A stretch of 36,942 nt of DNA from a virus, in the IMG/VR virus record IMGVR_UViG_3300034158_000065, positions 1 to 36,942 of that record. One strand, given 5' to 3'. The stretch's first letter is position 1; each line of letters begins with the position of its first letter. Below are positions 413 to 36,504 of this stretch, piece after piece. Made by a program: the position numbers and the translations under genes. The notes under the pieces were generated by a model. It was not told the origin of the DNA. It did no database searches and saw only the letters and a list, made by a program, of their open reading frames with translations.

Positions 413-459
413 GGTTTAAGTGTTTAAGATATTGAAATTAATGGATTTATTTTTTGTTT

Positions 460-478
460 TGTCCACGTCATGACCACA
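460..478. promoter_or_regulatory. Putative integrase arm-type sites, left
   Basis: TGTCCACG (460-467) and TGACCACA (471-478) lie about 50 bp inside attL. A near-identical pair lies inside attR at 36320-36339. The P2 integrase arm consensus, as I recall it, is TGTGGACA, the complement of TGTCCACA. The assignment rests on motif similarity and position only. Confidence 0.5.
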
Positions 479-568
479 TCGATAGAAGCATAGGCTAAAC
501 CTTCATACAAGTTAGTGAAGAGGTTTTAGGTCCTAACCAACTTGCAACGTACTAAGGCTAAAGAGTGA

Positions 569-593
569 GGGAGGCATAATGCCTCCCTTTTTA
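569..593 (+). terminator. Rho-independent terminator
   Basis: Perfect 8-bp stem GGGAGGCA, loop TAA, stem TGCCTCCC, followed by TTTTTAT. It lies in the 508-base stretch between attL and the solute-binding gene, which contains no convincing ORF. It may stop transcription leaving phoU, whose own terminator lost its T tract, or end a short phage transcript. Confidence 0.8.
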
Positions 594-863
594 TCTGATA
601 CCAGTCTGGACGAATGCTAAAGCCGAATTGGTTATGCAATCATGGCATTTGTTACTGCCAATCCAAAGCTTCGAGCCTTAAGTCACGAAAGTGCTTAACT
701 GAAGGGCACTAGGTCATGAGGCTTTTTAATAAGCTTTTGTTTTTTTTATGGTTTTTATTTGGTGCATTCTAAAAGTTTCATCATCAGGACTAAATCTTTT
801 TAGTGGAATAAGAGATCCACATCATGAAGTAAATCGTTAATATTTAGTATTTTTTGCATGCAG

Positions 864-892
864 AGTGATCGAACACGGCGATTTACTATAAT
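864..892 (+). promoter_or_regulatory. Promoter of the solute-binding-like gene
   Basis: A perfect -10 box TATAAT (887-892) stands 29 bases before the ATG at 921, with a weak -35 (GTGATC, 865-870) 16 bases upstream. The surroundings are AT-rich. GAGG at 911-914 is the ribosome binding site. The -10 is directly visible; the -35 is uncertain. Confidence 0.55.
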
Positions 893-920
893 TGAAATTA
901 TTTCCTCTTGAGGTATAGCT

Positions 921-1700
921 ATGAAAATTAGACTCTTCATTAGCTTAATTTTTGTGGTTTCCGGATCAACGGCGTTCTCTTTAACGGTTTCTAGTGAGGC
1001 CGTAAGTTTTGTGGAGCCTATAAGGGGTTGCACATTTCAGATTGAACCCATTATCAGAATTGAAAGTAATGGTAGAGTCTCAGGGCCATTAATTGACTAC
1101 TTTTTACACCATGTTGAACCCGAACTTGGGCGGCCAATAGAGTGGCAAGGGCTAAATGTCGCACGCTTACTTAGCAACCTCAAGGAAGGGGGTTGTGATT
1201 TTGCACCATTGCTCAGCTATAGCGAAGAACGGGCTAGGTATTTCAACTATCTTGAACCTTACTTTCTTCAGCTCAGACCTGTGCTTGTAGTTCTTGATTC
1301 ATATCCATTGCACACAGTTCTCCAACAGGAGGATCTATATGGTATGACGATTGGGTGGTCAAGCCAGTCGCTTGTGCCTGTACTTTTACAGTCCCCCAAA
1401 ATTAATATCGATGCACTCAGCCAACGTAACTGGGAACATGGGAATATGCAAAAGCTTTTACGTGGGCGTATCGATGCAGCTCTCTTCTCTAACGATATTT
1501 CAGCAAATTACTTTCGTGCACAGTTCCCAGTTAATACTAAAATTATATATTTACCAGTTTCTCCCCTACATGTTCACGTGGTGTTAGGGAAAAAATGGTC
1601 AGTTCAAAATTCCAGTGTAGCAGAAACGATTCAACGAGTGATTAAGGAAAAACCATTCTCTTCTGTATTGGAGAGACTAGATTATAATGATGTACGCTGA
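921..1700 (+). CDS. Orphan periplasmic solute-binding-like protein (SBP family 3 type)
   Basis: A 259-residue protein with a clear Sec signal: KIR, then a hydrophobic stretch LFISLIFVVSGSTAF (residues about 5-19). The mature part has the layout of small amino-acid/polar solute-binding domains: an early GPLIDYFLHHVEP segment, then LKEGGCDFAPLLSYSEERARYFNYLEPYF, the usual place where such proteins read 'D...t.t.eR....dFs.pY', then a hinge strand and LLRGRIDAALFSND. No permease or ATPase gene is nearby, so it is probably not a working ABC importer subunit; a sensing or binding role in the periplasm is a guess. The gene is visibly AT-rich beside the phage core and has its own promoter, which are marks of a transferred cargo (moron) gene. 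The specific ligand cannot be told. Confidence 0.65.
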   Translation: MKIRLFISLIFVVSGSTAFSLTVSSEAVSFVEPIRGCTFQIEPIIRIESNGRVSGPLIDYFLHHVEPELGRPIEWQGLNVARLLSNLKEGGCDFAPLLSYSEERARYFNYLEPYFLQLRPVLVVLDSYPLHTVLQQEDLYGMTIGWSSQSLVPVLLQSPKINIDALSQRNWEHGNMQKLLRGRIDAALFSNDISANYFRAQFPVNTKIIYLPVSPLHVHVVLGKKWSVQNSSVAETIQRVIKEKPFSSVLERLDYNDVR

Positions 1701-1936
1701 TAATTATGGTGTACCTTGGAACGGTTTAGTCGGTAAATAAGGCCTTTGGTTCTCGAGCCCTCATGACCTAATATTAGGCTTGATGTTTAGTGATCTTTTT
1801 TGAGCGGGAATTATGTCGCTGATTTCGATTAAAATAACTTATGCCTGGCGATTGCAGCTATTTTTACATGAAATTAGTTTCATCCTTTCTATTACAGTAA
1901 TATTTTCTAGTCTTACTTTGGTTGCTGCTACAGCAG

Positions 1937-1967
1937 AAACCCCGGCTACTTGGCCGGGGTTTTCTTT
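1937..1967 (+). terminator. Rho-independent terminator
   Basis: Ten-bp stem AAACCCCGGC, loop TACTTG, stem GCCGGGGTTT, followed by a T-rich tail TTCTTT. It is the strongest structure in the otherwise gene-poor, AT-rich 1701-2021 stretch and may end transcription from the solute-binding gene, 237 bases upstream. Confidence 0.8.
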
Positions 1968-2030
1968 GTCACGCGTGGGTTGTCGGTGGGTTGGCCAGGT
2001 GAACACCGAATCGTAACCTAGGCTGTGTTC

Positions 2031-2537
2031 TCAAAATGCTGGTTTTCTGTCCACAAATAGTTCCCGTAAGTAACTAAGGCAGAAAGCCAGCTTGATAAAG
2101 GCTGCAAAACTTCCCGCCAGCTTTTCATACCTCGTTGAGAATCGGCGAAACTTCTTCAGCCATCCGAAGCACCGTTCGACCACATTTCTCCTACGATAAC
2201 GAGCTTTGTCTAACACCAGTGGACGTCCCTTATGGTGCCGTTGCTGGTCGCTGCGTTGCGGGATAACCGCTTTTATCTTTCTGCGCCGGAGTTCTGCCCG
2301 CAGAGCCCTGCTGCTATAGGCCTTATCTGCGGCAAGATGCGTTGGCCGCGTGCGATAACGGCCTGATGAAGTCGGGATCCTTGCCATGGCCAACGCACTT
2401 GTCGCATATCTGATTTCCGCTGATTGCCCCGGCGAAAGGCAGAACCCCAGCGGTAAACCATTACCATCAGTGACCAAGTGAATTTTGCTGCCGAAACCAC
2501 CACGAGAGCGACCAAGCGCTTGATTTATCGGAGTGTT
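2031..2537 (-). CDS. IS5-family transposase, downstream frame (OrfB)
   Basis: This frame is entered by a -1 slip on the A7 run. It reads NTPINQALGRSRGGFGSKIH, then LVTDGNGLPLGF with the second catalytic aspartate, and ends with RRNVVERCFGWLKKFRRFST, which includes the catalytic glutamate (the Y-R-E/V-E-R signature of IS5 transposases). It starts no independent gene; the fused product of both frames is the DDE transposase. The stop lies in the left inverted repeat. Confidence 0.75.
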   Translation of the reverse strand, partial: NTPINQALGRSRGGFGSKIHLVTDGNGLPLGFCLSPGQSAEIRYATSALAMARIPTSSGRYRTRPTHLAADKAYSSRALRAELRRRKIKAVIPQRSDQQRHHKGRPLVLDKARYRRRNVVERCFGWLKKFRRFSTRYEKLAGSFAAFIKLAFCLSYLRELFVDRKPAF

Positions 2538-2851
2538 TTTTTACGCGCTCCGGCAGCATCTTTTGATGCCCAGACATTGGCGCCGTCAATGCACCACAGG
2601 TCGAAGTCGATAAGCCCTTCTTCATTGAGATGCAGTTGCAGCGCCGCAAGGATGGCATCGATGCGGCCTGTGCTTTGCCAACGTCGAAAGGAGTTGTAGA
2701 CCGAGTTCCATGGGCCGAAACGTTCTGGCAGATCTCGCCAAGGTGCACAGGTGTGAAGTATCCAGAGAATGTCATCGAGCACTTGGCGTGGCTCACGAGT
2801 AGGGCGTCCGCTTATGCGGTGGTATGGAAAAGGGGCTCGATAAGCCCTCAT
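2525..2851 (-). CDS. IS5-family transposase, upstream frame (OrfA)
   Basis: This 108-residue frame holds the N-terminal DUF4096-like domain, recognised from APWRDLPERFGPWNSVYNSF and the first catalytic aspartate in DLWCIDGANV. It ends GARKKTLR just after a run of seven A (2536-2542), a classic slip site for a -1 shift into the downstream frame. The usual N-terminal residues (SRRYQLTDAQ) are encoded just upstream in another frame and run into TGA, a feature shared with the second IS copy, so either the real start is the ATG at 2851 or the 5' end is decayed in both. Confidence 0.75.
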   Translation of the reverse strand: MRAYRAPFPYHRISGRPTREPRQVLDDILWILHTCAPWRDLPERFGPWNSVYNSFRRWQSTGRIDAILAALQLHLNEEGLIDFDLWCIDGANVWASKDAAGARKKTLR

Positions 2852-3058
2852 TGTGCATCGGTCAACTGGTAACGACGGGACACTGCATAGGTCTTAAGCT
2901 GTTGAGAAGATGTGAGATTATATCTTCATCACTTTAAGAACACAGCCTAGTCGCAACGAGAAGATAGTAAAAGTGTTAACAGGAGCCGAGTGCCTTCGAC
3001 GCCGAGCTCTGCAAAAAAGATCTCTGGCCAGCACGCTCAACCCCATCATCGAATAGAT

Positions 3059-3083
3059 AAAAAAAGCCGCTCTAGTGAGCGGC
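3059..3083 (-). terminator. Rho-independent terminator (minus strand)
   Basis: Read on the minus strand: GCCGCTC, loop ACTA, GAGCGGC, then seven T. The stem is perfect. It would end transcription coming from the right, through the short frame ending at 3108. Confidence 0.7.
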
Positions 3084-3244
3084 CGAAAAATGTCTTTAGG
3101 TTCGGGCCTAAAAACTGGAGTTACCACGAACAGACAAATCCATCAAAGGCACCACCTGATTAAATGGATTCGCTTGCCCCCCTAAAATATACATGCATAT
3201 GGAATAAAAGTTAAGTCTCAATGTGGCCCCATTGTTACATCAAC

Positions 3245-3268
3245 AAAAAAGCCGCTCTGCTTAGTGGC
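3245..3268 (-). terminator. Rho-independent terminator-like hairpin (minus strand)
   Basis: Read on the minus strand: GCCACT, loop AAGCAG, AGCGGC (one G-U pair), then six T. It shares the string AAAAAAGCCGCTCT with the terminator 190 bp to the left. Confidence 0.5.
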
Positions 3269-3377
3269 TTGCAAAAGAGATCGATGCGAGGTAACCGTTC
3301 ACCGAGAGTGGATTGACAGGAAAAAAGAGACGATCTTGCCTGTTGTATGATCCTGCCCGTGTTGCATGCTTGCTGGC

Positions 3378-3575
3378 ATGACCAAAAAGTACTCGACACC
3401 GGCGGTTAACTCCCTGACCCTCGAGCAGGCCCACAAGCTGATACATAAGCTGCTGGACTGTATTACCGCGTTGGAGGACCGCCTCAACCAGCACAGCGGC
3501 AACTCTTCCAAGCCCCCCTCCAGTGATGGGCCTGGAAGTGCTCCGACTGCTCGGCAACATCCGGCTTCCAGTAAG
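3378..3575 (+). pseudogene. IS66-type transposase, N-terminal fragment
   Basis: About 65 residues survive. The string NQHSGNSSKPPSSDGPGS is the hallmark N-terminal segment of IS66 TnpC-type transposases, preceded by a short coiled region (LEQAHKLIHKLLDCITALEDRL). The frame is cut at about 3573, where the sequence abruptly becomes IS5-like DNA and hits TGA within two codons. All catalytic domains are missing, so the fragment is inert. Confidence 0.72.
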
Positions 3576-4045
3576 TGAATTTTGCTGCCAAAACCGCCAC
3601 GCGAGCGACCAACAGCTTGATTCACCGCAGTGTTTTTTTACGTGCTCCGGCAGCATCTTTGGATGCCCTGACATTGGAGCCGTCAATGCACCACAGGTCG
3701 AAGTCAATAAGTCCTTCTTCCATTGAGATGCAGTTGCAGCGCTTCAAAGATGGCATCGATACGACCTGTACTCTGCCAAGGTCGAAAAGTGTTGTAGACC
3801 GAACTCCATGGGCCAAAACGTTCTGGCAGATCTCGCCAAGGTGCACTGGTGTGGAGTATCCGGAGAATGCCATCGAGCACCAGGTGTAGCTCGCGAGTAG
3901 TAGGTACGCTTATGTGGTGGTATGGGAAAAGGGGCTAGATAAACCTCATTGTGTATCGGTCAACTGGTAACGACAGGACACTGCATAGTGTCTTAAGCTG
4001 TTGAGACGATTTGAGATCATATATTCATCACTTTGAGAACACAGC
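3573..4045 (-). mobile_element. Truncated second IS5-family copy
   Basis: It matches 2478-2946 of the first IS with many scattered differences, including the T7 (A7 on the minus strand) slip site and the GPW/WCIDG coding region. Its right end is intact: inverted repeat finishing CACAGC at 4045, followed by CTAG. The left half is missing and is replaced by the IS66 fragment. Coding is broken by several frame changes. The right end is inserted inside the 3' end of the antitoxin gene. Confidence 0.82.
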
Positions 4046-4316
4046 CTAGGGCGCCGGCCACTTTAGTGATGGTGGAAAAGGTTGGGTTTCCTTCACCGGA
4101 TAAGGCTTTGTATAGCCCCTCTCTGCTCATCCCGGCATCACGGGCCAGCTGGCTCAGGTTACGAGCACGTGCAATGTCAGCCAGTGCGGCCGCAATCAAA
4201 GCGGGATCGCCTTCTTCCATGGCCGCTTCCATATAGTGGAGCATGTCTTCATCGGTCTTGAGGTAGTCAGCGGCATCATAGCGGCTGAATGTAACTGCCC
4301 GGTCATTGTCTTTCAT
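4017..4316 (-). CDS. HTH antitoxin of a HigBA/RelE-type module, 3' end replaced by IS
   Basis: A 99-residue protein starting MKDNDRAVTFSRYDAADYL, followed by an XRE-like helix-turn-helix (ARARNLSQLARDAGMSREGL, then GNPTFSTITKVAGAL). This is the 'addiction module antidote' family that pairs with HigB-like killers; it binds the toxin and represses the operon. The final nine codons (GCVLKVMNI and the stop) come from the inverted-repeat end of the neighbouring IS, which inserted at CTAG. They resemble the natural tails of this family (LGL.L.V), so the antitoxin may still work. The gene starts two bases after the toxin stop, in the usual toxin-first order. Confidence 0.75.
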   Translation of the reverse strand: MKDNDRAVTFSRYDAADYLKTDEDMLHYMEAAMEEGDPALIAAALADIARARNLSQLARDAGMSREGLYKALSGEGNPTFSTITKVAGALGCVLKVMNI

Positions 4317-4318
4317 GT

Positions 4319-4540
4319 TTAATCCTTCCATTGCGCGGCAATGGTCTTTGCCTGTTCGATATCTCGGGCTTGGGTGCCCTTGTCCCCACCACACAGCAAC
4401 ACAATGATGATCGGGCCCTTTGTTATGTAGTAGATGCGGTACCCTGGGCCGTAGTCTATTCGCATTTCCGAGAGACCTTCCCCGATGGGTTTTACGTCAC
4501 CAGGATTGCCAAGGACCAAGCGCCGGATCCTGGCAGTCAC
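4319..4540 (-). pseudogene. RelE/HigB-like toxin, N-terminus apparently broken
   Basis: The frame encodes the core of the 'addiction module killer' family: ARIRRLVLGNPGDVKPIGEG, then RIDYGPGYRIYY, then LLCGGDKGTQARDI. These are RNA-cleaving toxins. Family members have about 20-25 more N-terminal residues (a pattern like F..W...L.D). In the right place the minus strand reads FTSEALT in the neighbouring frame and then DLQGK in this frame, as if one base were lost near 4550. The only start left is a GTG at 4540 overlapping the TGA of the upstream frame. Most likely an inactive toxin, or one restarted from that GTG. Confidence 0.55.
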
Positions 4541-4764
4541 CTTCCCTTGGAGATCGTCAGCGCTTCACTCGTGAAATTTTGGATCCTTGCCAAAACTGCC
4601 CTATCAGCCTTACCCCATAAGGCTACCTGTTTTTTCCTTGTGGTCGCACTAGATCCATAACCACAATCCAGACTCTCACGGGATTTATGTATTTTTCTAA
4701 TTAAATCAATGAGTTGCATTGTTACCTGCCGAGATCTTGAATGATCTTTTTCTCGACAAACGAT

Positions 4765-4783
4765 CACGAAATGCATTTTCGTG
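4765..4783. promoter_or_regulatory. Inverted repeat upstream of the toxin-antitoxin pair
   Basis: CACGAAA, spacer TGCAT, TTTCGTG: a perfect 7-bp-arm palindrome about 225 bases upstream of the toxin frame, in AT-rich DNA. It could be an operator for the module's HTH antitoxin. The rest of 4541-4963 holds no gene I can support. Confidence 0.35.
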
Positions 4784-4963
4784 AAATTCTGAATTCCTCC
4801 CAAGAACCCAGTCACGGAGCTGGTTAGGCTATAGATTTGCACCATTTTATTTGTGCAAAAAACGCCACATTTTTAGCGCGAAGGTGGGGGGGGAGGAGTG
4901 CTGATTCCGTGAGCGGCACGTTTCCGCCGCCGCGCCTGGGCTGCGGCGCTGGAGGCTGGCCAC

Positions 4964-4987
4964 AAAAAAGCGACGCATGTGCGTCGC
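4964..4987 (-). terminator. Terminator of the late tail operon
   Basis: Read on the minus strand: GCGACGC, loop ACAT, GCGTCGC, then six T. It lies 28 bases after the last tail gene (stop at 5015) and ends the whole minus-strand late operon. Confidence 0.88.
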
Positions 4988-5014
4988 TATGGTGAATGGG
5001 CTTATGGCTGGGTG

Positions 5015-5713
5015 TTACTGGCTACCACCCCATCCCATTTTCTTGAACGCCTTGGCCGCGATGGCCAGCAGTTCGGTACTGCTTGCCTCGGGCAGCATGG
5101 GGCGCGCGGGCGTCTCTACCGTCCATCGGTTCTTCCTGGTCTCGCCGGTGGTGGTCCTGATAATGATCGCGGCACGGGTTCGGCTGACGTGCGCTTGTAT
5201 CCATTTCAGGGACGGCTTGCGATAGCGGCGGCGCTTGCCGCGTTCGGACAAGACTTTGTATCCCCGCGCACGCAGGCGCACCGCTTGGCTGCGGGTGCAT
5301 GGCTCATCCGTTGGTTTGAATGGCGCCTGTCTCTTGCCCTTGTCTGAAGCTCTTGGTTTGGCAGGCTTGGTTGGCGCAGCGGTGAACTGCTGTGACATGC
5401 CCTGGTGTTGCTGGTTGGCTATCATCCCCGCAAAGCGGGAGTCGAAGTCGATGATGGCCGCATCGTCGGTACCGCGAGCGCGCAGGCGTTTGGACAGGCC
5501 GGTGAGCCGCTTGTGCTTTCGCTTGCTCTTGGTTGGCGCCCACTTGGTGCCATCAGGTGCTTTGCCAGCCCTGATGTGCTGGCGGTTCGCCTTGACCACT
5601 TCTCGGCCTATCTGCTGGGTGATGCGTCGGCGCTTGGCTGGCGGCAGAGAGGCCGCGTCCAGACGCTCCAGCAGGCTGAGCATGGTGCCCTGATTGATGG
5701 TGAGTGAGATCAT
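5015..5713 (-). CDS. Phage virion morphogenesis protein (GpS / Mu G-like tail completion)
   Basis: A 232-residue basic protein. The N-terminus (ERLDAASLPPAKRRRITQQI, then NRQHIRAGKAPDGTKWAPTK) matches the phage virion morphogenesis family (P2 GpS, Mu gpG), whose members help complete the tail at the head-proximal end. It is longer than P2 GpS (about 150 residues) because of an Arg/Lys-rich insert in the middle. The start at 5713 has GAGGC about 9 bases upstream. It is the last gene of the late operon, 10 bases after the hub gene, and is followed by the terminator. Confidence 0.75.
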   Translation of the reverse strand: MISLTINQGTMLSLLERLDAASLPPAKRRRITQQIGREVVKANRQHIRAGKAPDGTKWAPTKSKRKHKRLTGLSKRLRARGTDDAAIIDFDSRFAGMIANQQHQGMSQQFTAAPTKPAKPRASDKGKRQAPFKPTDEPCTRSQAVRLRARGYKVLSERGKRRRYRKPSLKWIQAHVSRTRAAIIIRTTTGETRKNRWTVETPARPMLPEASSTELLAIAAKAFKKMGWGGSQ

Positions 5714-24918: not shown

Positions 24919-27147
24919 ATGGCCTATACAGAAGAGGTACGACAAACCGCCCGGCGGCTTTATCTGCGCCACTGGAGCGCACAGGAGATCAAGGCCGAGC
25001 TGGGCCTTGGCAGTGTGCGAGTGGTGTACCTGTGGGCCGAGAAGTACGGCTGGACTGAGCTCCTGAGTGATGAAGCGCTGGAGGATGCGATCACCCGTCG
25101 CTACCAGGCGCTGGCCGTCAAGTCGAAGAAGAATCACGCCGACCTGGCCGAAATGGACAGGCTCATCAACCACCACTGCGCCCTCAAAGATCAGGCCGTC
25201 AAGCTGGCCGAGCGAGAGCAAGCCCTCAAGGCCCGCCAGTTGGCCGAGCCACAAGACGAACCGAGCGAGGGGGGCCGCCGGCGCGGGGAGGGAAAACCGA
25301 AGAAAGGCGGCGGCAAGAAGACCAAGAACTGGGTCAATGACTTGGGCCCGGAGGACTTTGAAGGGTGGTTGGCCTCGCTGTTCCCGCACCAGCGGTACGT
25401 GCGCGACGTCAAGAATAACCCGACCATGCCGCGCACCCGCAATATCCTCAAGTCCCGCCAGATTGGCATGACCTACTACTTCGCCGGCGAAGCGCTGGAG
25501 GATGCCATCCTGACCGGTGGCAACCAGGTGTTCCTGTCCGCTACCCGCGCCCAGGCCGAGATCTTCCGCTCCTACATCATCAACATCGCCCGCACGTTCT
25601 TGGGGGTGGAGCTCACGGGTAACCCGATCGTACTCTCCAACGGGGCGCAGCTGGTGTTCTGCTCAACCAGCGCCAACAGTGCCCAGGGCTACACCGGCAA
25701 CTTCTACGCCGATGAATACTTCTGGATCAAGAACTTCAAGGCGGTCACCGACGTGGCCACCGGCATGGGCTCGCAATCCCACTGGCGCAGGACCTTTTTC
25801 TCGACCCCTTCCAGCAAGGCCCACGGGGGTTACAAGCTGTGGACGGGGGATGACTGGAAGGGCAAGGATCCGGCGCGCCAGGCCATCGAGTTTCCGACCG
25901 AGGCAGAGCTGCGCGATGGTGGCCGGGTCTGCCCGGATCGGGTGTGGCGTTACATCCTCACCCTGGAAGAGGCGGTATCGAGCGGCTTTACCCTCATCGA
26001 CATTGAGGCGCTACGTGAAGAGACCGCGATCGAAGTGTTCGATCACCTCTACATGTGCGCCTTCATTGACGATGAAGCCTCGGTGTTCAAGTTCCAGCAC
26101 ATGGAGCGGGCTCAGACCACTATCAGCAACTGGAGCGACTACACCCCGGGTCACCCCGAGCCGTTCGGCAAGCGTGAGGTGTGGCTGGGCTATGACCCGA
26201 GCCGCACCCGCGATAACGCCACCCTGGTGGTGGTTGCCCCGCCACTGTTCCCGGGCGAGAAGTTCCGAGTGCTGGAGAAGCACTTCTGGCGCGGGATGAA
26301 CTTCCGTTACCAGGCGAGTGAGATCGAGAAGATCGCCAAGAAGTTTCGGGTTACCTATCTGGGGATCGACGTCTCCGGGGTCGGCAGCGGTGTCTATGAC
26401 CTGCTGCAGCCGGTGTTCAAGTCCACCATCACCCCGATCAACTACAACGTCGAAAGCAAAGCCCGCCTGGTCCTCAAAATGGTGGATGTGGTCGAGTCAG
26501 ACCGTATCGAGTGGGATCAGGAGGACATCGAGATCCCGCTCGCCTTCATGAGTATCAAACGCAGTACCACCGGTGGTGGCCAGATGACGTTCCGCGCCTC
26601 GCGCAGCAGCGAGACCGGACACGCCGACGTGTTCTTTGCCATCGCCCACGCGGTGGACAACGAACCGCTCGACACATCACGGCGCCGCAAATCCACCTGG
26701 GCCATCAGCAAACGAGGAAAACATGAGTCACAAACAGCGCTTTCATCAGCGGGCCGAGCGGCCCAGTACCCCATCCCATGTTCCCAGCACCCGTTCCGCC
26801 GTGAGCTTTTCCATTCCCGAGCCCGTCGACCCCACGGCCTGGATGACCGATTACACGGACGTGTTTTACAGCCCCTGGGGCGAGTATTACCTGCCACCCA
26901 TCGACAGGAAGGGCCTGGCCAAGGTGGCCCGCGCCAATGCGCACCACGGCGCTATCTTGATGGCGCGGCGCAACATGGTGTCGGGGCGGTTTATCAGCAG
27001 CGAAGGCGTGCCCCGGGAAGTGATCACTGCCTTTGTGCACAACCTGCTGCAGTTTGGGGACGCGGCCTTGCTCAAACTGCGCAACGGGTTCGGCCAGGTG
27101 GTGGGGCTCTACCCGTTATCGAGCCTGTACGTGCGCCGCTGCAATGA
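24919..27147 (+). CDS. Terminase large subunit (GpP-like ATPase/nuclease), stop codon apparently lost
   Basis: Starts MAYTEEVRQTARRLYLRHWS with an HTH-like N-terminus typical of P2 GpP. Around residues 170-215 are SLFPHQRYVRDVKNNPTMPR and RNILKSRQIGMTYYFAGEAL (Walker A-like SRQIGMT), then FYADEYFWIKNF (Walker B region) and RTFFSTPSS; the nuclease domain includes WLGYDPSRTRDNATLVVVAP and GIDVSGVGSG. The domain ends near 26700 (about 600 residues, like P2 GpP at 590). The frame then continues 141 codons in an out-of-frame reading of the portal gene. One extra A in the run at 26718-26721 would give SKRGKT and TGA overlapping the portal ATG. An ATG at 24850 also exists but lies in the promoter region. 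Confidence 0.85.
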   Translation: MAYTEEVRQTARRLYLRHWSAQEIKAELGLGSVRVVYLWAEKYGWTELLSDEALEDAITRRYQALAVKSKKNHADLAEMDRLINHHCALKDQAVKLAEREQALKARQLAEPQDEPSEGGRRRGEGKPKKGGGKKTKNWVNDLGPEDFEGWLASLFPHQRYVRDVKNNPTMPRTRNILKSRQIGMTYYFAGEALEDAILTGGNQVFLSATRAQAEIFRSYIINIARTFLGVELTGNPIVLSNGAQLVFCSTSANSAQGYTGNFYADEYFWIKNFKAVTDVATGMGSQSHWRRTFFSTPSSKAHGGYKLWTGDDWKGKDPARQAIEFPTEAELRDGGRVCPDRVWRYILTLEEAVSSGFTLIDIEALREETAIEVFDHLYMCAFIDDEASVFKFQHMERAQTTISNWSDYTPGHPEPFGKREVWLGYDPSRTRDNATLVVVAPPLFPGEKFRVLEKHFWRGMNFRYQASEIEKIAKKFRVTYLGIDVSGVGSGVYDLLQPVFKSTITPINYNVESKARLVLKMVDVVESDRIEWDQEDIEIPLAFMSIKRSTTGGGQMTFRASRSSETGHADVFFAIAHAVDNEPLDTSRRRKSTWAISKRGKHESQTALSSAGRAAQYPIPCSQHPFRRELFHSRARRPHGLDDRLHGRVLQPLGRVLPATHRQEGPGQGGPRQCAPRRYLDGAAQHGVGAVYQQRRRAPGSDHCLCAQPAAVWGRGLAQTAQRVRPGGGALPVIEPVRAPLQ

Positions 27148-27775
27148 TGGCAACTTCCTGATGCTGCAGCGCGATGGCAGTTACAAGCGCTATGTCAGCG
27201 AGGACATCATCTGGCTGGCCCAGTACGACCCGGTGCAGCAGGTGTATGGCCAGCCCGATTACCTGGGGGGCTTGCAGTCGGCCTTGCTCAACCAGGACGC
27301 CACTATGTTTCGGCGTAAATACTTCCTCAACGGGGCGCACATGGGGTTCATCTTCTATGCCACCGACCCGAACATGGACGATGACCAGGAAGCGGAAATG
27401 AAGGACATGATCGCCAGCTCCAAGGGGGTCGGGAATTTTCGCTCTATGTTCGTCAATATCCCGGGAGGCAAGCCAGACGGGATCAAGCTTATCCCGGTGG
27501 GGGATATCGCGACCAAGGACGAGTTTGCGGCCATCAAGGCCATCACCGCCCAGGATGTGCTGACGGCCCACCGGTTCCCAGCTGCGCTCGCCGGCATCAT
27601 CCCGGCCAACGGCAGCGGGGGCTTGGGGAACCCCGAGCAGTACGACCGGACCTATGCGCGCAACGAGGTGATCCCATTGTGCGAGCTTATCCAGGATGCC
27701 ATCAACGGCGCCAACCTGCCGCGCCGGCTGCAGGTGAGTTTCAACCGCTCGCTTGAGGTGGCTACCACTGTGTGA
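26723..27775 (+). CDS. Portal protein (GpQ-like)
   Basis: A 350-residue portal of the PBSX/P2 GpQ family (P2 GpQ 344). Evidence: WMTDYTDVFYSPWGEYYLPP, LAKVARANAHHGAILMARRN, then ALLKLRNGFGQVVGLYPLSS, EDIIWLAQYDPVQQVYGQPDYL and TAHRFPAALAGIIPANGSG, all hallmark segments. It forms the dodecameric DNA channel at the head vertex. The ATG at 26723 has GAGGAAA five bases upstream. The 3' end overlaps a possible hairpin around AAACCC/GGGTTT. Confidence 0.92.
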   Translation: MSHKQRFHQRAERPSTPSHVPSTRSAVSFSIPEPVDPTAWMTDYTDVFYSPWGEYYLPPIDRKGLAKVARANAHHGAILMARRNMVSGRFISSEGVPREVITAFVHNLLQFGDAALLKLRNGFGQVVGLYPLSSLYVRRCNDGNFLMLQRDGSYKRYVSEDIIWLAQYDPVQQVYGQPDYLGGLQSALLNQDATMFRRKYFLNGAHMGFIFYATDPNMDDDQEAEMKDMIASSKGVGNFRSMFVNIPGGKPDGIKLIPVGDIATKDEFAAIKAITAQDVLTAHRFPAALAGIIPANGSGGLGNPEQYDRTYARNEVIPLCELIQDAINGANLPRRLQVSFNRSLEVATTV

Positions 27776-28240: not shown

Positions 28241-28288
28241 GTTTTTTCCTTTAGAGAGGTGCCGGTGGGAACAGGAAAGAAGAGATTA

Positions 28289-28993
28289 ATGGAAATAAAG
28301 GACTCTGGGAATATTGTTGTTGGGTCTGATATCTTATTATATCTTAACCCTGCTAGTCAGGCTGGGATTCAGGTTAGCTTACCTACGGGATCGACAAAAA
28401 GACTAACTGCATTTTTTGTTGGTATGGATAGACAGCCCCTACTTTATTTTTCTTTCCCATCAGTGAGTAGGGATGAAATACTTACCATATGTCACCCAGG
28501 ATACAAAATTCATGTCTCCGTTTTATGTGAGAAAGGATTTGGCTCTATTGTTTACTTTGATGGAGTGGTGAATAATGTGGGAGATGAGCCGGCAATTATA
28601 ACAATGCAGGTTCCTGAATATATAACAATGAATCGTATTCGTAAGGAAACCCGTTATCCTGTTTCTATTTCCGGTTGGTCTGTCGTTGGTGAGGGGATTA
28701 AGTTGCCGCTTAATCTTGTTGATATATCCACAGATGGATGTGCTTTTAGAGTAGATTATTTATCAATGCCTTTGGCAATGGGGCAAGAATTTAAAATATT
28801 TTTTGATGATGTTAAGTGGGGGGCGGAAATAACTCTTAGTGGAAGTATATGTAATCAAAGAAAACTACTTGACTCAATTATTTATGGAGTCAAGTTTGAT
28901 TCGTTTGGTATTGAAAGTGGTAGGCGCTTGTTTACGTATCTTGAATTTAATGGACAAATCATGGTTGCTCGGCGTAACCCTAACGAGTCTTAG
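28289..28993 (+). CDS. PilZ-domain c-di-GMP effector (YcgR-like), cargo gene
   Basis: A 234-residue protein from the ATG at 28289. N-terminal part (residues about 1-100) is a beta-rich YcgR-N-like domain: IVVGSDILLYLNP, LTAFFVGMDRQPLLYFSFP, KIHVSVLCEKGFGSIVYFDG. The PilZ domain follows: R118-KET-R122 (RKETRYPVS) is the RxxxR motif, and D145-IST-DG150 (VDISTDGCAFRV) the D/N-x-S-x-x-G motif; together these bind c-di-GMP. YcgR proteins brake flagella or act on other surface functions. The gene is strongly AT-rich against its neighbours and stands alone between terminators, so it is likely lysogenic-conversion cargo. I prefer ATG 28289 (GGAAAGAAGAG just upstream) to GTG 28259, whose SD is too close. 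Confidence 0.85.
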   Translation: MEIKDSGNIVVGSDILLYLNPASQAGIQVSLPTGSTKRLTAFFVGMDRQPLLYFSFPSVSRDEILTICHPGYKIHVSVLCEKGFGSIVYFDGVVNNVGDEPAIITMQVPEYITMNRIRKETRYPVSISGWSVVGEGIKLPLNLVDISTDGCAFRVDYLSMPLAMGQEFKIFFDDVKWGAEITLSGSICNQRKLLDSIIYGVKFDSFGIESGRRLFTYLEFNGQIMVARRNPNES

Positions 28994-29092: not shown

Positions 29093-31864
29093 TTATGATC
29101 GTAGCCTATCGGCAACAAAGGCTACGGTGTCACCGCCGTTCGGTGTCATGGTATCTGCCTTAGCCATTAGATGAGTGAGCAGCGCTTGCCGGGCTTCAGG
29201 GTGAACGTCGGTCAGGCGCGCTTTGGTTGCCTCGGCAATGAGGTGATGCACCTCTTTTGGGCGAGCAGGAGGTCGCTGGCCATCGGTTGGTGCCCAGAAA
29301 AATTCGGCGTTGGCCAGCGTCTCTTTCCGCTGCTCACTGGGAAGCCGTGGCCACGTTTTCAGATTGATGCTGTCGCGTAGCCGGTCAAGTTGGCCTCGGG
29401 CTTGGTTTGCATCTCCCTCTTCCAGGGCATCCAGCAGCGCAAGCGCACCGTCGCTACCGGTGGCCGTCATGCTGGCCAGCCAAGCGGCCACATCCCCCGA
29501 CTGAACCAACAGGGCGCGTGCATCATCCAGCGCGGCCTGCCGTTGCGCCTCTCTTCGCTTGGCCTCTATCCCTGTATGGAATGGGTCGGGGTCGGCCGGG
29601 CACGAATACGGGTGGCGTTCGGTCACCTTCAGCTCGCCATTGCGGATGTACACGAACCTATCACCCGCCCTCACAATTGAGCTGCGCCGGATCATGGCCA
29701 CGTCGTCCGCATCCAGTCCCAAATGGAATAGATTTACACCTCTCAATGGATCCTCCTTAGATCCTTGGTGATCGTCGCGTACAGTTGTTGCCAGAGCTCC
29801 AAGGGGGGAAAGACCCTCGCTTCGCTCGACACTCACTAACTCGCTGCGCTCTCCCACACCGACAGACACACCAGCCTGTGCCACTGATGCGGCGTGTGAG
29901 CCACATTTACGCAGTACCCACTCTCCGGTGCGTGTCGGCTGAGTGATGCCATCACAGGCCCTTACGCCCACGAGCTTTGTCATGGCTTCGCCGTACTGGT
30001 TAGGTTCGCTAAAGGCGGTCCGGTAGATACTCAAGGGGCGGGCATCACGACGGCAGCAAGGGCCGCCCATGGCCTGGGTGAAGTTCTTCCAGTCCACGGC
30101 ATCTGCATATCGGCGGCACTCTTCCATGATTGGGCTGGCCAGGGGCGCAACGACGATCCCTTTGGCTTCTTGTAAACGGCCAGGCAGCCGGCGCAGCTCG
30201 CGCCATATACCGACCGGCGGCCCTTTCAGAGGTTGGAATTGACGCAGGCCCCAGAGCGAGGCCCAGGCCCGCACCCGGCGGGCGCCTTCGGTGGCGGCCG
30301 TCTCGGCTTCCAGATCGCCTTCGTCGCCGACCCGGTACCCGTCGATATTCTTGGCGATGTACTTGACGATATAGCCCACGGCGCCGCCCTTCTCCTTGTC
30401 CATCACCTTCCAGTCAAAGCGGGGAGTGATATCGCTATAGGGCTGCTTGCTGTCGGGGTGGCGCTTGCGCACCAGATCGCCTTTGTCATGGCTGAGGGCA
30501 TAACGCTGCAGGATGCTGATCAAACGGTGCTGGTGTTCAGGTTTGACCCAGATCAGCAGGTGCCAGTGGGGTGTCCCGTCGTGATGAGGTTCAACCACTC
30601 TGAAACCGAAATATTCTATGGGGTCCTCAGTTGGGGGGAGATCGCCAACCTGGGAAAGGTTGCGAGCCAGTGCTGAGCGGCAGCGTTCCCACAACTTGCC
30701 GATATAGCGCTGGGTATCGCGGGGCGATGAGCCGTCATATTTGGAGTTTTCGGTGGTGCGGTCAGGCTGGTTTGGCTGTGACTTTTTGATGGTCTTCCAG
30801 GGGTGATATTTACTCGGCGCTGTCCAAGTAAAGAACAGACCCACGTAACCCATTTCATCGGCCACATCAGAAAAGCCCCGTGCCCGCACAACCAGTTCAT
30901 GGCGGCGGTTCTCGGGATTGGCGATGGACGCTTTGACCGCATCTTCCAGGCTGATGATGATCTCTTCCTGGGCGTTATAGGCTTCCATGTCCTTGAGCCA
31001 AGCTGCTGCCATCTGTTGGCGCTCGATGAAGGCCCGCAGCCCCTGGCTGGATACATAGGCGGACACACCCCGGCGAACGTGGCCCAGTAGGATGGCGCAG
31101 TGCTCACCATACTGTTCCCATATCTTGCGCAGTTTGCGTGCCCACCACTTGGGGTCAATCCAGCGCACAAGGTGTGCGGCAATAAAAGCATCGCGGGTCT
31201 CGGCGGTTATGAACTTGGGCAACCGTGGCAGCAACCCCCAGGCAGCAAGTGGCTGGCTGCATACCTTCCACAGCCGGAGCGCCGGTACCTGCTGATCGCC
31301 AAAATCGGTGGTGGCATTAAACAGCCTCATGACCCGCTCAACGTAGCTCACGGCCAGGCGTTCACGGTCTTCTTTGGTACGCAGAGACTCCAAGGGTTCG
31401 GGGATGGCGTTTTGCACTTGGCGCAAAGTGGTGATTCGACTTGATAGCCAGCGGTTGGCATCCTGGCAGATGGCCACACCCTTGAGCACATCCGGGGCAC
31501 GGCGTACGCAGTAGCCAACAAATAGCTCGGCTACCAGGTCGCTTGGTAGTTGTACCCCTGGCCCACCGCCTTCGCGTGGAATGGGGCGATCAAGCAGGTC
31601 GAGCGCCCAATCCAGTGCATATGCCCCGGTGATGCCGACAAAATAGGATCTGATGGTCTCAATCCTGGTATCGATATCGCCACCAGTGAACTCAGCACGG
31701 CGAGCAGCAGGCAGGCGAGCGGCAGACAATGGATAGAGAGAGACACGACGACAGGCCATGATGCGGCGCGCCATGGCTTTTGTGGACACAGCCAATTTCC
31801 AGGCAGCGGGCTGCCTGGGTGGTATGGGCTTGGCGTCAAATAGCTCGGTGTAATAGTCCCGCAT
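29093..31864 (-). CDS. GpA-type rolling-circle replication initiator
   Basis: A 923-residue P2 GpA family endonuclease (P2 A has 761). Motif I-like FFTWTAPSKYHP at about 345-355, HUH-type metal site HHDGTPHWHLLIWVKP at about 427-442, and the two catalytic tyrosines Y498 and Y502 in GYIVKYIAKNIDGY. It nicks the phage origin and stays linked to the 5' end during rolling-circle replication; in P2 the origin lies inside gene A. The C-terminal 300 residues are longer than P2's. It is the last gene of the early minus-strand operon; the start overlaps the preceding stop (TGATG). Confidence 0.92.
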   Translation of the reverse strand: MRDYYTELFDAKPIPPRQPAAWKLAVSTKAMARRIMACRRVSLYPLSAARLPAARRAEFTGGDIDTRIETIRSYFVGITGAYALDWALDLLDRPIPREGGGPGVQLPSDLVAELFVGYCVRRAPDVLKGVAICQDANRWLSSRITTLRQVQNAIPEPLESLRTKEDRERLAVSYVERVMRLFNATTDFGDQQVPALRLWKVCSQPLAAWGLLPRLPKFITAETRDAFIAAHLVRWIDPKWWARKLRKIWEQYGEHCAILLGHVRRGVSAYVSSQGLRAFIERQQMAAAWLKDMEAYNAQEEIIISLEDAVKASIANPENRRHELVVRARGFSDVADEMGYVGLFFTWTAPSKYHPWKTIKKSQPNQPDRTTENSKYDGSSPRDTQRYIGKLWERCRSALARNLSQVGDLPPTEDPIEYFGFRVVEPHHDGTPHWHLLIWVKPEHQHRLISILQRYALSHDKGDLVRKRHPDSKQPYSDITPRFDWKVMDKEKGGAVGYIVKYIAKNIDGYRVGDEGDLEAETAATEGARRVRAWASLWGLRQFQPLKGPPVGIWRELRRLPGRLQEAKGIVVAPLASPIMEECRRYADAVDWKNFTQAMGGPCCRRDARPLSIYRTAFSEPNQYGEAMTKLVGVRACDGITQPTRTGEWVLRKCGSHAASVAQAGVSVGVGERSELVSVERSEGLSPLGALATTVRDDHQGSKEDPLRGVNLFHLGLDADDVAMIRRSSIVRAGDRFVYIRNGELKVTERHPYSCPADPDPFHTGIEAKRREAQRQAALDDARALLVQSGDVAAWLASMTATGSDGALALLDALEEGDANQARGQLDRLRDSINLKTWPRLPSEQRKETLANAEFFWAPTDGQRPPARPKEVHHLIAEATKARLTDVHPEARQALLTHLMAKADTMTPNGGDTVAFVADRLRS

Positions 31865-35330: not shown

Positions 35331-36311
35331 ATGTCGATTAAGAAGCTCGATGATGGTCAGTATCAAGTGGACGTTAGACCGAGGGGACGCAATGGAAAGC
35401 GGATCCGGCGGAGGTTTGCCAAGAAACACGAAGCTGTTGCCTTTGAGCGGCATGTGCTGGCGACGCAGCATGACAAGCCCTGGCAGAGTAAGCCTGCAGA
35501 TGCTCGCACGCTGGCTGAGCTCATCGAAATTTGGTGGGCGCATAAAGGGCAGCATCAAAAATGGGGTACTCATGCGCGCCGCACTTTACTACGTGCAGAT
35601 CGTTATCTGGGTGAGGTGCGGGTCAATCAGCTTGATGCCCATACTTTAACTTTGTTGCGCTCACGTATGCTGGCCGCAAGCATAACCCCCAATAGCGTCA
35701 ACCGCCTGGTGGTGGAGTTGAGTGGCATGTTCAACTTCCTCATTGAGGGAGGGTTCTACCACGGTGATAACCCGATTCGGGAACTGAAGGCCTTGAAGGT
35801 TGCCCCCAGAGAGATGAGTTATCTTTCCCCACTTGAGGTACAGCAATTGTTGGCTGGGTTGAGTGGGGATGATCGGGGAGTCGCAGTGTTATGCCTGAGT
35901 ACCGGCGCACGGTGGAGCGAGGCTTACACTGTGCGGGCTGAGCATGTGGTCAACCGACGGGTGACGTTCGTAGCTACCAAAAACGGTAAAAATCGGACGG
36001 TACCTATCAGTGCAGAGGTTGAGGCTCAATGGGTGGCGAACAAACGAGGGGTGTTGTTTCCCACGGCGAGCTATCTGCGGGTGCGAGAGATATTAAGGGC
36101 TGTGAAGCCTGATTTGCCAAAAGGGCAAGCCTTGCATGCACTACGACATACCTTTGCCACTCACTTTATGGCGAATGGCGGGAACATCCTAGTGCTGCAA
36201 CGGATCCTAGGTCATGCGTCTATCCAGCAGACGATGACCTATGCTCATTTCGCTCCTGATTTTTTACAGGATGCCGTGCAGTTCAATCCTCTGAAAGGTG
36301 GAGCTGGTTAG
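35331..36311 (+). CDS. int: Tyrosine integrase (P2 Int-like)
   Basis: A 326-residue tyrosine recombinase. Catalytic residues: R194 (TGARWSE), K220 region (TKNGKNR), H269-x-x-R272 (HALRHTFATHF), H295 (LGHASIQ) and Y304 (TMTYAHFAP). The N-terminus (SIKKLDDGQYQVDVRPRGRN) is the arm-binding domain and residues 60-150 the core-binding SAM-like domain. It catalyses integration at the phoU terminator and, with Cox, excision. GGAG lies nine bases before the ATG. It ends 169 bases from attR. Confidence 0.95.
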   Translation: MSIKKLDDGQYQVDVRPRGRNGKRIRRRFAKKHEAVAFERHVLATQHDKPWQSKPADARTLAELIEIWWAHKGQHQKWGTHARRTLLRADRYLGEVRVNQLDAHTLTLLRSRMLAASITPNSVNRLVVELSGMFNFLIEGGFYHGDNPIRELKALKVAPREMSYLSPLEVQQLLAGLSGDDRGVAVLCLSTGARWSEAYTVRAEHVVNRRVTFVATKNGKNRTVPISAEVEAQWVANKRGVLFPTASYLRVREILRAVKPDLPKGQALHALRHTFATHFMANGGNILVLQRILGHASIQQTMTYAHFAPDFLQDAVQFNPLKGGAG

Positions 36312-36339: not shown

Positions 36340-36480
36340 CCTGACCATTCATGAGGGGGAATGAAAGCTTATCAGAGCTTCCGGCTGAGCTTAGGGATTA
36401 CGGTAGTAAGCCAGGCATAGCAAGGCGCCTGGCTGAATTCCTTGAGTTTTCAGGGCTTAGTAAGCCTGATGGCAGAATGC

Positions 36481-36504
36481 ATAAAAAGGCGCGTTTCGCG
36501 CCTT
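36481..36504. other. attR core (24-bp direct repeat, right copy)
   Basis: Exact match to 389-412. Here the hairpin AAGGCGCG-TTT-CGCGCCTT is followed by TTTTG, so this end keeps the T tract of the original host terminator. The phage-host junction lies within this core. Confidence 0.88.

Follow-up and report, generated by a model that had tools for sequence, protein, structure and literature searches.

The stretch of DNA analysed here (the window) is an IMG/VR record of 36,942 bases that starts inside the host phoU gene, whose 3' part occupies positions 3-380 on the plus strand, and ends inside a second host gene, probably corC-like. Between these flanks lies a P2-like (Peduoviridae), phiO18P-like Aeromonas prophage, with its P2-type set of portal, terminase, scaffold, capsid, baseplate, tail, and gpA-like genes and an integrase at 35331-36311 on the plus strand (phrog_1, 2.3e-73). 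A 29-base repeat (97% identity) is found at 384-412 and 36476-36504, with the attL core at 389-412, within the phoU terminator, and the attR core at 36481-36504. One Aeromonas genome (G028) carries the empty site, its host flanks being contiguous with a gap of 1 (98.4% identity over 383 bases on the phoU side and 99.6% over 467 bases on the other). Hence the phoU terminator is the insertion site, and the gene that concerns us, on the plus strand at 921-1700, belongs to the prophage, at the accessory end near attL, as a previous sequence-only reading had placed it. That the gene might be a host gene beside the prophage was considered and rejected, given that phoU, the att site, and the right-hand host gene are contiguous in G028, a genome where the gene has no counterpart at E <= 1e-20. 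The right-hand flank was matched in 36 of 37 Aeromonas genomes (E <= 1e-5), and the phoU end adjoins it in 28 of 30 inspected loci, with no more than 30 bases between them in 25 of these 28; in the two exceptions (G023 and G034) the attL of a related prophage abuts the phoU end.

Integration also alters the sequence past the phoU terminator stem (bases 384-425), from TTTTTTG into TTGGTTTAAG, a change that may make the terminator leakier, letting phoU transcripts run on towards the gene at 921-1700. A hairpin with a T-run at 567-589 could make up for this loss and may insulate that gene from phoU.

The gene is part of a cargo slot (413-5014) whose phage-side limit is the tail completion (S-like) gene at 5015-5713 on the minus strand. 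We surveyed 78 viral and 12 genome loci carrying the neighbouring baseplate gene (L045-L122 and L138-L149) and found the slot in the same place with hypervariable content, such that what lies past the baseplate gene (and the S-like gene where present) differs from prophage to prophage. The slots of relatives hold D12 and C5 DNA methylases, HNH and BsuBI/PstI endonucleases, Fic, PAAR, DUF3289, DAPG hydrolase, and heparinase-like proteins, a HigBA-like pair (L070), and many unassigned proteins, 11 of 20 hand-chosen cargo proteins having no Pfam match at 1e-4. Several of the cargo genes are full-length members of known families, and 21 cargo ORFs range in GC from 0.37 to 0.59. AT-rich, exchangeable cargo is the rule in this tail-attL slot, and the gene at 921-1700 is one variant of it.

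The survey also revealed a recurrent cargo protein (L138:2239-3606, with similar proteins in L046, L047, L086, L109, and L150), which has a common N-terminal part, MA[AT]KNISELNLDxF, followed by a variable remainder, and often has a small membrane protein encoded next to it. The L138 copy has no Pfam match. A DUF3289 protein in L067 that adjoins a lipoprotein may be a cousin of this protein. The recurrent protein and its small membrane neighbour are possible effector-immunity pairs.

Within the slot, the gene at 921-1700 is accompanied by the remains of mobile elements. A degenerate, MITE-like short dispersed Aeromonas repeat of roughly 200 bases with inverted ends, which contains the 567-589 hairpin, occupies 493-711 and is also seen in loci L020, L021, L022, L028, L029, L031, L035, L039, and L043. 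Nine of the 37 Aeromonas genomes have matches to it, not all of full length; among the matches listed, 9 are in G024, and one of these again lies in the interval that separates phoU from the right-hand host gene. An IS5-family-like element with two transposase ORFs and matching ends is found at 2020-2950 on the minus strand, and a truncated second copy, also on the minus strand (3573-4049), adjoins an IS66 transposase fragment. Lastly, 4017-4540 on the minus strand encodes a HigA-like antitoxin together with a HigB/Gp49-like toxin ORF that is truncated at its N-terminus. Compared with L070, the toxin ORF (4319-4540) lacks about 25 N-terminal residues, and the antitoxin ORF seems complete.

These surroundings raise the possibility that the gene is a passenger, which arrived with the repeat- and IS-rich segment at 413-4050 and at present serves neither the phage nor the lysogen. 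In keeping with this, the segment combines the MITE-like repeat, the complete IS element and its truncated copy, the IS66 fragment, and the truncated toxin gene, and a second prophage copy of the gene was found neither by a pattern search of IMG/VR nor, with the family profile, in any of 43 comparable slots (the control was found). These 43 are the 32 of 78 viral and 11 of 12 genome loci with at least 1000 bases past the baseplate gene, the other viral loci being cut short by the trimming of IMG/VR provirus ends, and they are not 43 independent events, as certain loci represent one and the same prophage (such as L046 and L138). Against a passenger stand the reading frame, which is intact over 259 codons, the retention of the pocket and the cysteines in the encoded protein (see below), and the full-length state of several other cargo genes in the slot. 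On balance, we regard a mere passenger as somewhat unlikely, although it is a serious contender.

The gene starts with ATG and encodes 259 amino acids, a length reached in none of 2000 mononucleotide shuffles of 413-2019, the longest chance ORF having 186 codons. It was also considered as a degenerate pseudogene and rejected as such, since it has no internal stop and its motifs are kept. Its GC content is 41.7% (GC3 36.7%) versus 62.9% in the phage backbone (5015-27000), which bears out its earlier description as AT-rich. The perfect -10 element that had been claimed for it is present as a sequence, TATAAT at 887-892 on the plus strand, but its standing as part of a promoter is only suggestive, because the promoter scan calls none there, the best -35 found by eye is an unconvincing GTGATC (3 of 6 bases, 16-base spacer), and at the local base composition chance alone would place a TATAAT within 50 bases with a probability of about 6%. 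TTGAGG at 908-913 could be the ribosome-binding site. There is no clear terminator directly 3' of the gene, and an Rfam search returned only weak hits, all far under gathering scores.

What does the gene encode? The protein matches the Pfam family SBP_bac_3 (PF00497) with 31.1 bits against a cut-off of 26.4, and a structure model built from 11 sequences is confident overall (mean pLDDT 85.1, pTM 0.78), with confidence dropping chiefly over the first 30 residues and at the very C-terminus. The predicted two-lobe fold is closest to that of 4ymx (Z 22.3, 211 residues, rmsd 2.6), followed by 4zv1 (Z 21.9), BvgS VFT2 (21.6), the histidine-kinase sensor 3h7m (21.6), and RmcA (7ejg; Z 20.6, rmsd 3.2, 219 aligned), where matches within 1 Z unit of each other are treated as tied. 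The best matches are thus amino-acid-type solute-binding proteins (SBPs) and sensor domains sharing that fold. In a BFVD fold search, none of the 11 matches at E <= 0.001 was named as belonging to an Aeromonas phage. The Pfam match and the model agree with the earlier description of the protein as solute-binding-like, and the structure prediction then proposed as a check upholds a binding fold. Moreover, as had been claimed, the gene has no transporter partners in the window: Pfam searches with 25 window proteins found no ABC importer permease, ATPase, or other ABC transporter component. We therefore classify the gene product as a free-standing class II (SBP_bac_3-type) SBP, its fold being a confident prediction, and the gene as an acquired cargo gene (or "moron") of the prophage.

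Known amino-acid SBPs, such as AncQR (4zv1), 4ymx, LAO (1lst), and GlnBP (1wdn), resemble the prophage protein in their two-lobe fold (Z 21-22) and in the position of an arginine that binds the ligand carboxylate, but they differ in sequence (about 14-21% identity) and in an acid for which the prophage protein has a serine, and unlike them it is prophage-borne and has no transporter genes alongside. By profile alignments, Arg104 (codon 1230-1232, plus strand) falls at the carboxylate-binding arginine and Ser188 (codon 1482-1484, plus strand) in the column that is usually an amine-binding Asp or Glu, the roles of both columns being those in the LAO and GlnBP structures. By the model and these alignments, the fold and one of the two parts of the amino-acid clamp are kept. 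The replacement of the acid by Ser188 makes the usual alpha-amino-acid ligand class doubtful, although the amine-binding acid could conceivably be Asp190 instead, by way of a shift in the alignment.

A signal peptide had been attributed to the protein, and the N-terminus is signal-peptide-like in its hydropathy, having a basic start followed by a hydrophobic run and an AFS|L-type end that resembles a cleavage site; the protein is apparently exported. The protein has no second strongly hydrophobic segment (the best 19-residue mean past residue 30 being 1.14) and no lipobox cysteine, its only cysteines being at positions 37 and 92.

Relatives of the SBP gene are few, and the close ones are chromosomal. 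At E <= 1e-20 they occur in 5 of 37 Aeromonas genomes, all on the chromosome, the named hosts being A. sobria, A. allosaccharophila, A. veronii, and A. lacus. In the order, 6 of 394 genomes have a relative (E <= 1e-12), four being these Aeromonas copies and two having 20-27% identity, and in the class only one of 369 does (E <= 1e-10), again G001. The A. veronii-group orphan gene resembles the prophage gene in protein identity (about 55-62% depending on the measure), in length, and in keeping both cysteines and Ser188, the latter in all five close relatives, but it is chromosomal, outside the prophage slot, and has a GC content of 61-63%. Residues 170-194 form a 25-residue block that is identical in 4 of the 5. 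Among viruses and plasmids, the IMG/VR pattern search found no relative with either the single protein or an alignment as query, an approach that mainly reaches close relatives; the notion of a gene widespread in phages was dropped, INPHARED having given one marginal hit (E 0.1, 29% identity over 24% of the query); and plasmids gave one weak hit (26%) and no DNA match. Literature searches on prophage-borne SBPs, at the level of titles and abstract openings, yielded no published SBP_bac_3 cargo gene in a prophage. The nearest isolates, phiO18P, A051, and P05B, are of the same phage type and match about half of the window between 4500 and 28000 at 78-83% DNA identity, but have no relative of the SBP gene.

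Between the prophage gene and its chromosomal relatives, identity at the three codon positions is about 0.62, 0.77, and 0.31, and dS is saturated. As the protein has been kept while third positions agree at only about 31%, selection has maintained it through most of the period after the lineages diverged; selection seen through the relatives need not, however, have persisted on the prophage branch. A recent origin from an A. veronii copy was rejected, based on that third-position identity and a GC content 20 points lower. The A. sobria locus (L002) encodes an SH3-like protein, an AraC regulator, a LysE exporter, DUF3313, and a cupin near the relative, along with an SBP_bac_6-like gene just under the cut-off, and no ABC importer among the 7 neighbouring genes scanned.

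The sequence-only reading had also pointed to a second AT-rich cargo gene, related to c-di-GMP, and to a signalling link between the two. The second gene is real: a PilZ-domain gene (Pfam 1.9e-10; GC 38.7%) lies at 28259-28993 on the plus strand, with the portal gene (26636-27775) on one side and the gpA-like replication gene (29093-31864) on the other, and its product has an N-terminal part of about 125 residues. This portal-gpA site is a hotspot described for P2-like phages (PMC9122126). Could the SBP sense a ligand and feed c-di-GMP signalling through the PilZ protein? SBP_bac_3 domains do feed c-di-GMP systems, RmcA being an example (PMC8846402), and the model matches RmcA itself. The SBP and PilZ genes, however, are 27 kb apart, each in a cargo site of its own. 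Of the 25 window proteins compared with Pfam, a set that does not include every small ORF, none is a GGDEF, EAL, or receptor protein, such as the partner receptor expected nearby in a c-di-GMP pair of the NspS-MbaA type. Relatives of the two genes co-occur at chance level, the SBP gene having relatives in 5, the PilZ gene (at 32-54% identity) in 7, and both in 2 of 37 Aeromonas genomes (hypergeometric P = 0.23). A lack of co-occurrence in other prophages had been named as grounds for refutation, and as far as the IMG/VR pattern search goes this counts against the link, no viral relative of either gene having been found. Given the spread of GC among the 21 cargo ORFs of related slots, the AT-richness shared by the two genes is no clue to a link. 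We thus consider a signalling pair very improbable.

What, then, might a free-standing SBP do for a lysogen? The reading we prefer, tentatively and with slightly less than even confidence, is that the protein is exported, binds a ligand, and acts in trans through a host partner. The gene would be expressed in the lysogen from its own promoter and the protein exported to the periplasm. There the protein would close around a small ligand bound by Arg104 and dock onto a host inner-membrane partner, which could be an ABC importer of the amino-acid type or a receptor that responds to SBPs, giving the lysogen an extra nutrient or signal input. The A. veronii-group relatives presumably work likewise. 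This action in trans is favoured by the SBP_bac_3 match over the cut-off, by the Z of 20-22 of the two-lobe model against liganded amino-acid SBPs, by the retention of the arginine position and of block 170-194, and by the A. sobria relative also having no ABC importer nearby. Host partners of the appropriate kind should exist, since SBP_bac_3 is common in the genus, with 24-36 places per genome in all 8 Aeromonas genomes searched. That SBPs can stimulate receptors as well as transporters is established (PMC9602780). Speaking against action in trans are Ser188 in place of the amine-binding acid and a promoter that is weak by consensus. A more specific proposal, which we judge decidedly unlikely, is that the altered pocket makes the protein a ligand-sensing adaptor for a non-standard ligand, one that plugs into a host importer or receptor.

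A further option, unlikely in our view, is superinfection exclusion, where the periplasmic SBP would block the entry of related phages, for example via an inner-membrane DNA-injection protein. P2-like phages are described as carrying anti-phage hotspots (PMC9122126), and the restriction-modification and toxin-like genes in the slots of relatives fit such a role. In addition, the Vibrio phage K139 family (P2/HP1-like) carries glo, described as encoding a periplasmic protein and as the family's immunity gene (PMC4870250), and the K139 baseplate protein is 45% identical to that of our prophage; glo and the SBP gene are alike in that each, as described or predicted, encodes a periplasmic protein from a prophage. 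Yet the SBP gene matches no PADLOC family, simple blocking needs no conserved SBP pocket, and the close relatives are chromosomal and outside phages. As for the hotspots themselves, the gpA-gpQ hotspot of E. coli P2-like phages resembles the SBP slot in that accessory genes are swapped in and out at one set position of a conserved phage backbone, but it corresponds to the PilZ site, whereas the SBP slot is at the tail-attL end (PMC9122126).

The preferred reading, an SBP acting in trans, concerns a protein of an ordinary type that is uncommon as a phage payload. Phage cargo has mostly been studied as toxins and defence, and an SBP in a slot otherwise given to restriction-modification and effector-like genes adds to the kinds of gene that temperate phages may carry between Aeromonas strains. 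The tail-attL slot, present in many phiO18P-like prophages, is in turn a useful place to seek further accessory systems. Should the adaptor proposal hold, a phage would be rewiring the sensing or diet of its host without encoding a membrane component. The SBP gene offers a compact example in which one can test whether a periplasmic binding protein brings about lysogenic conversion.
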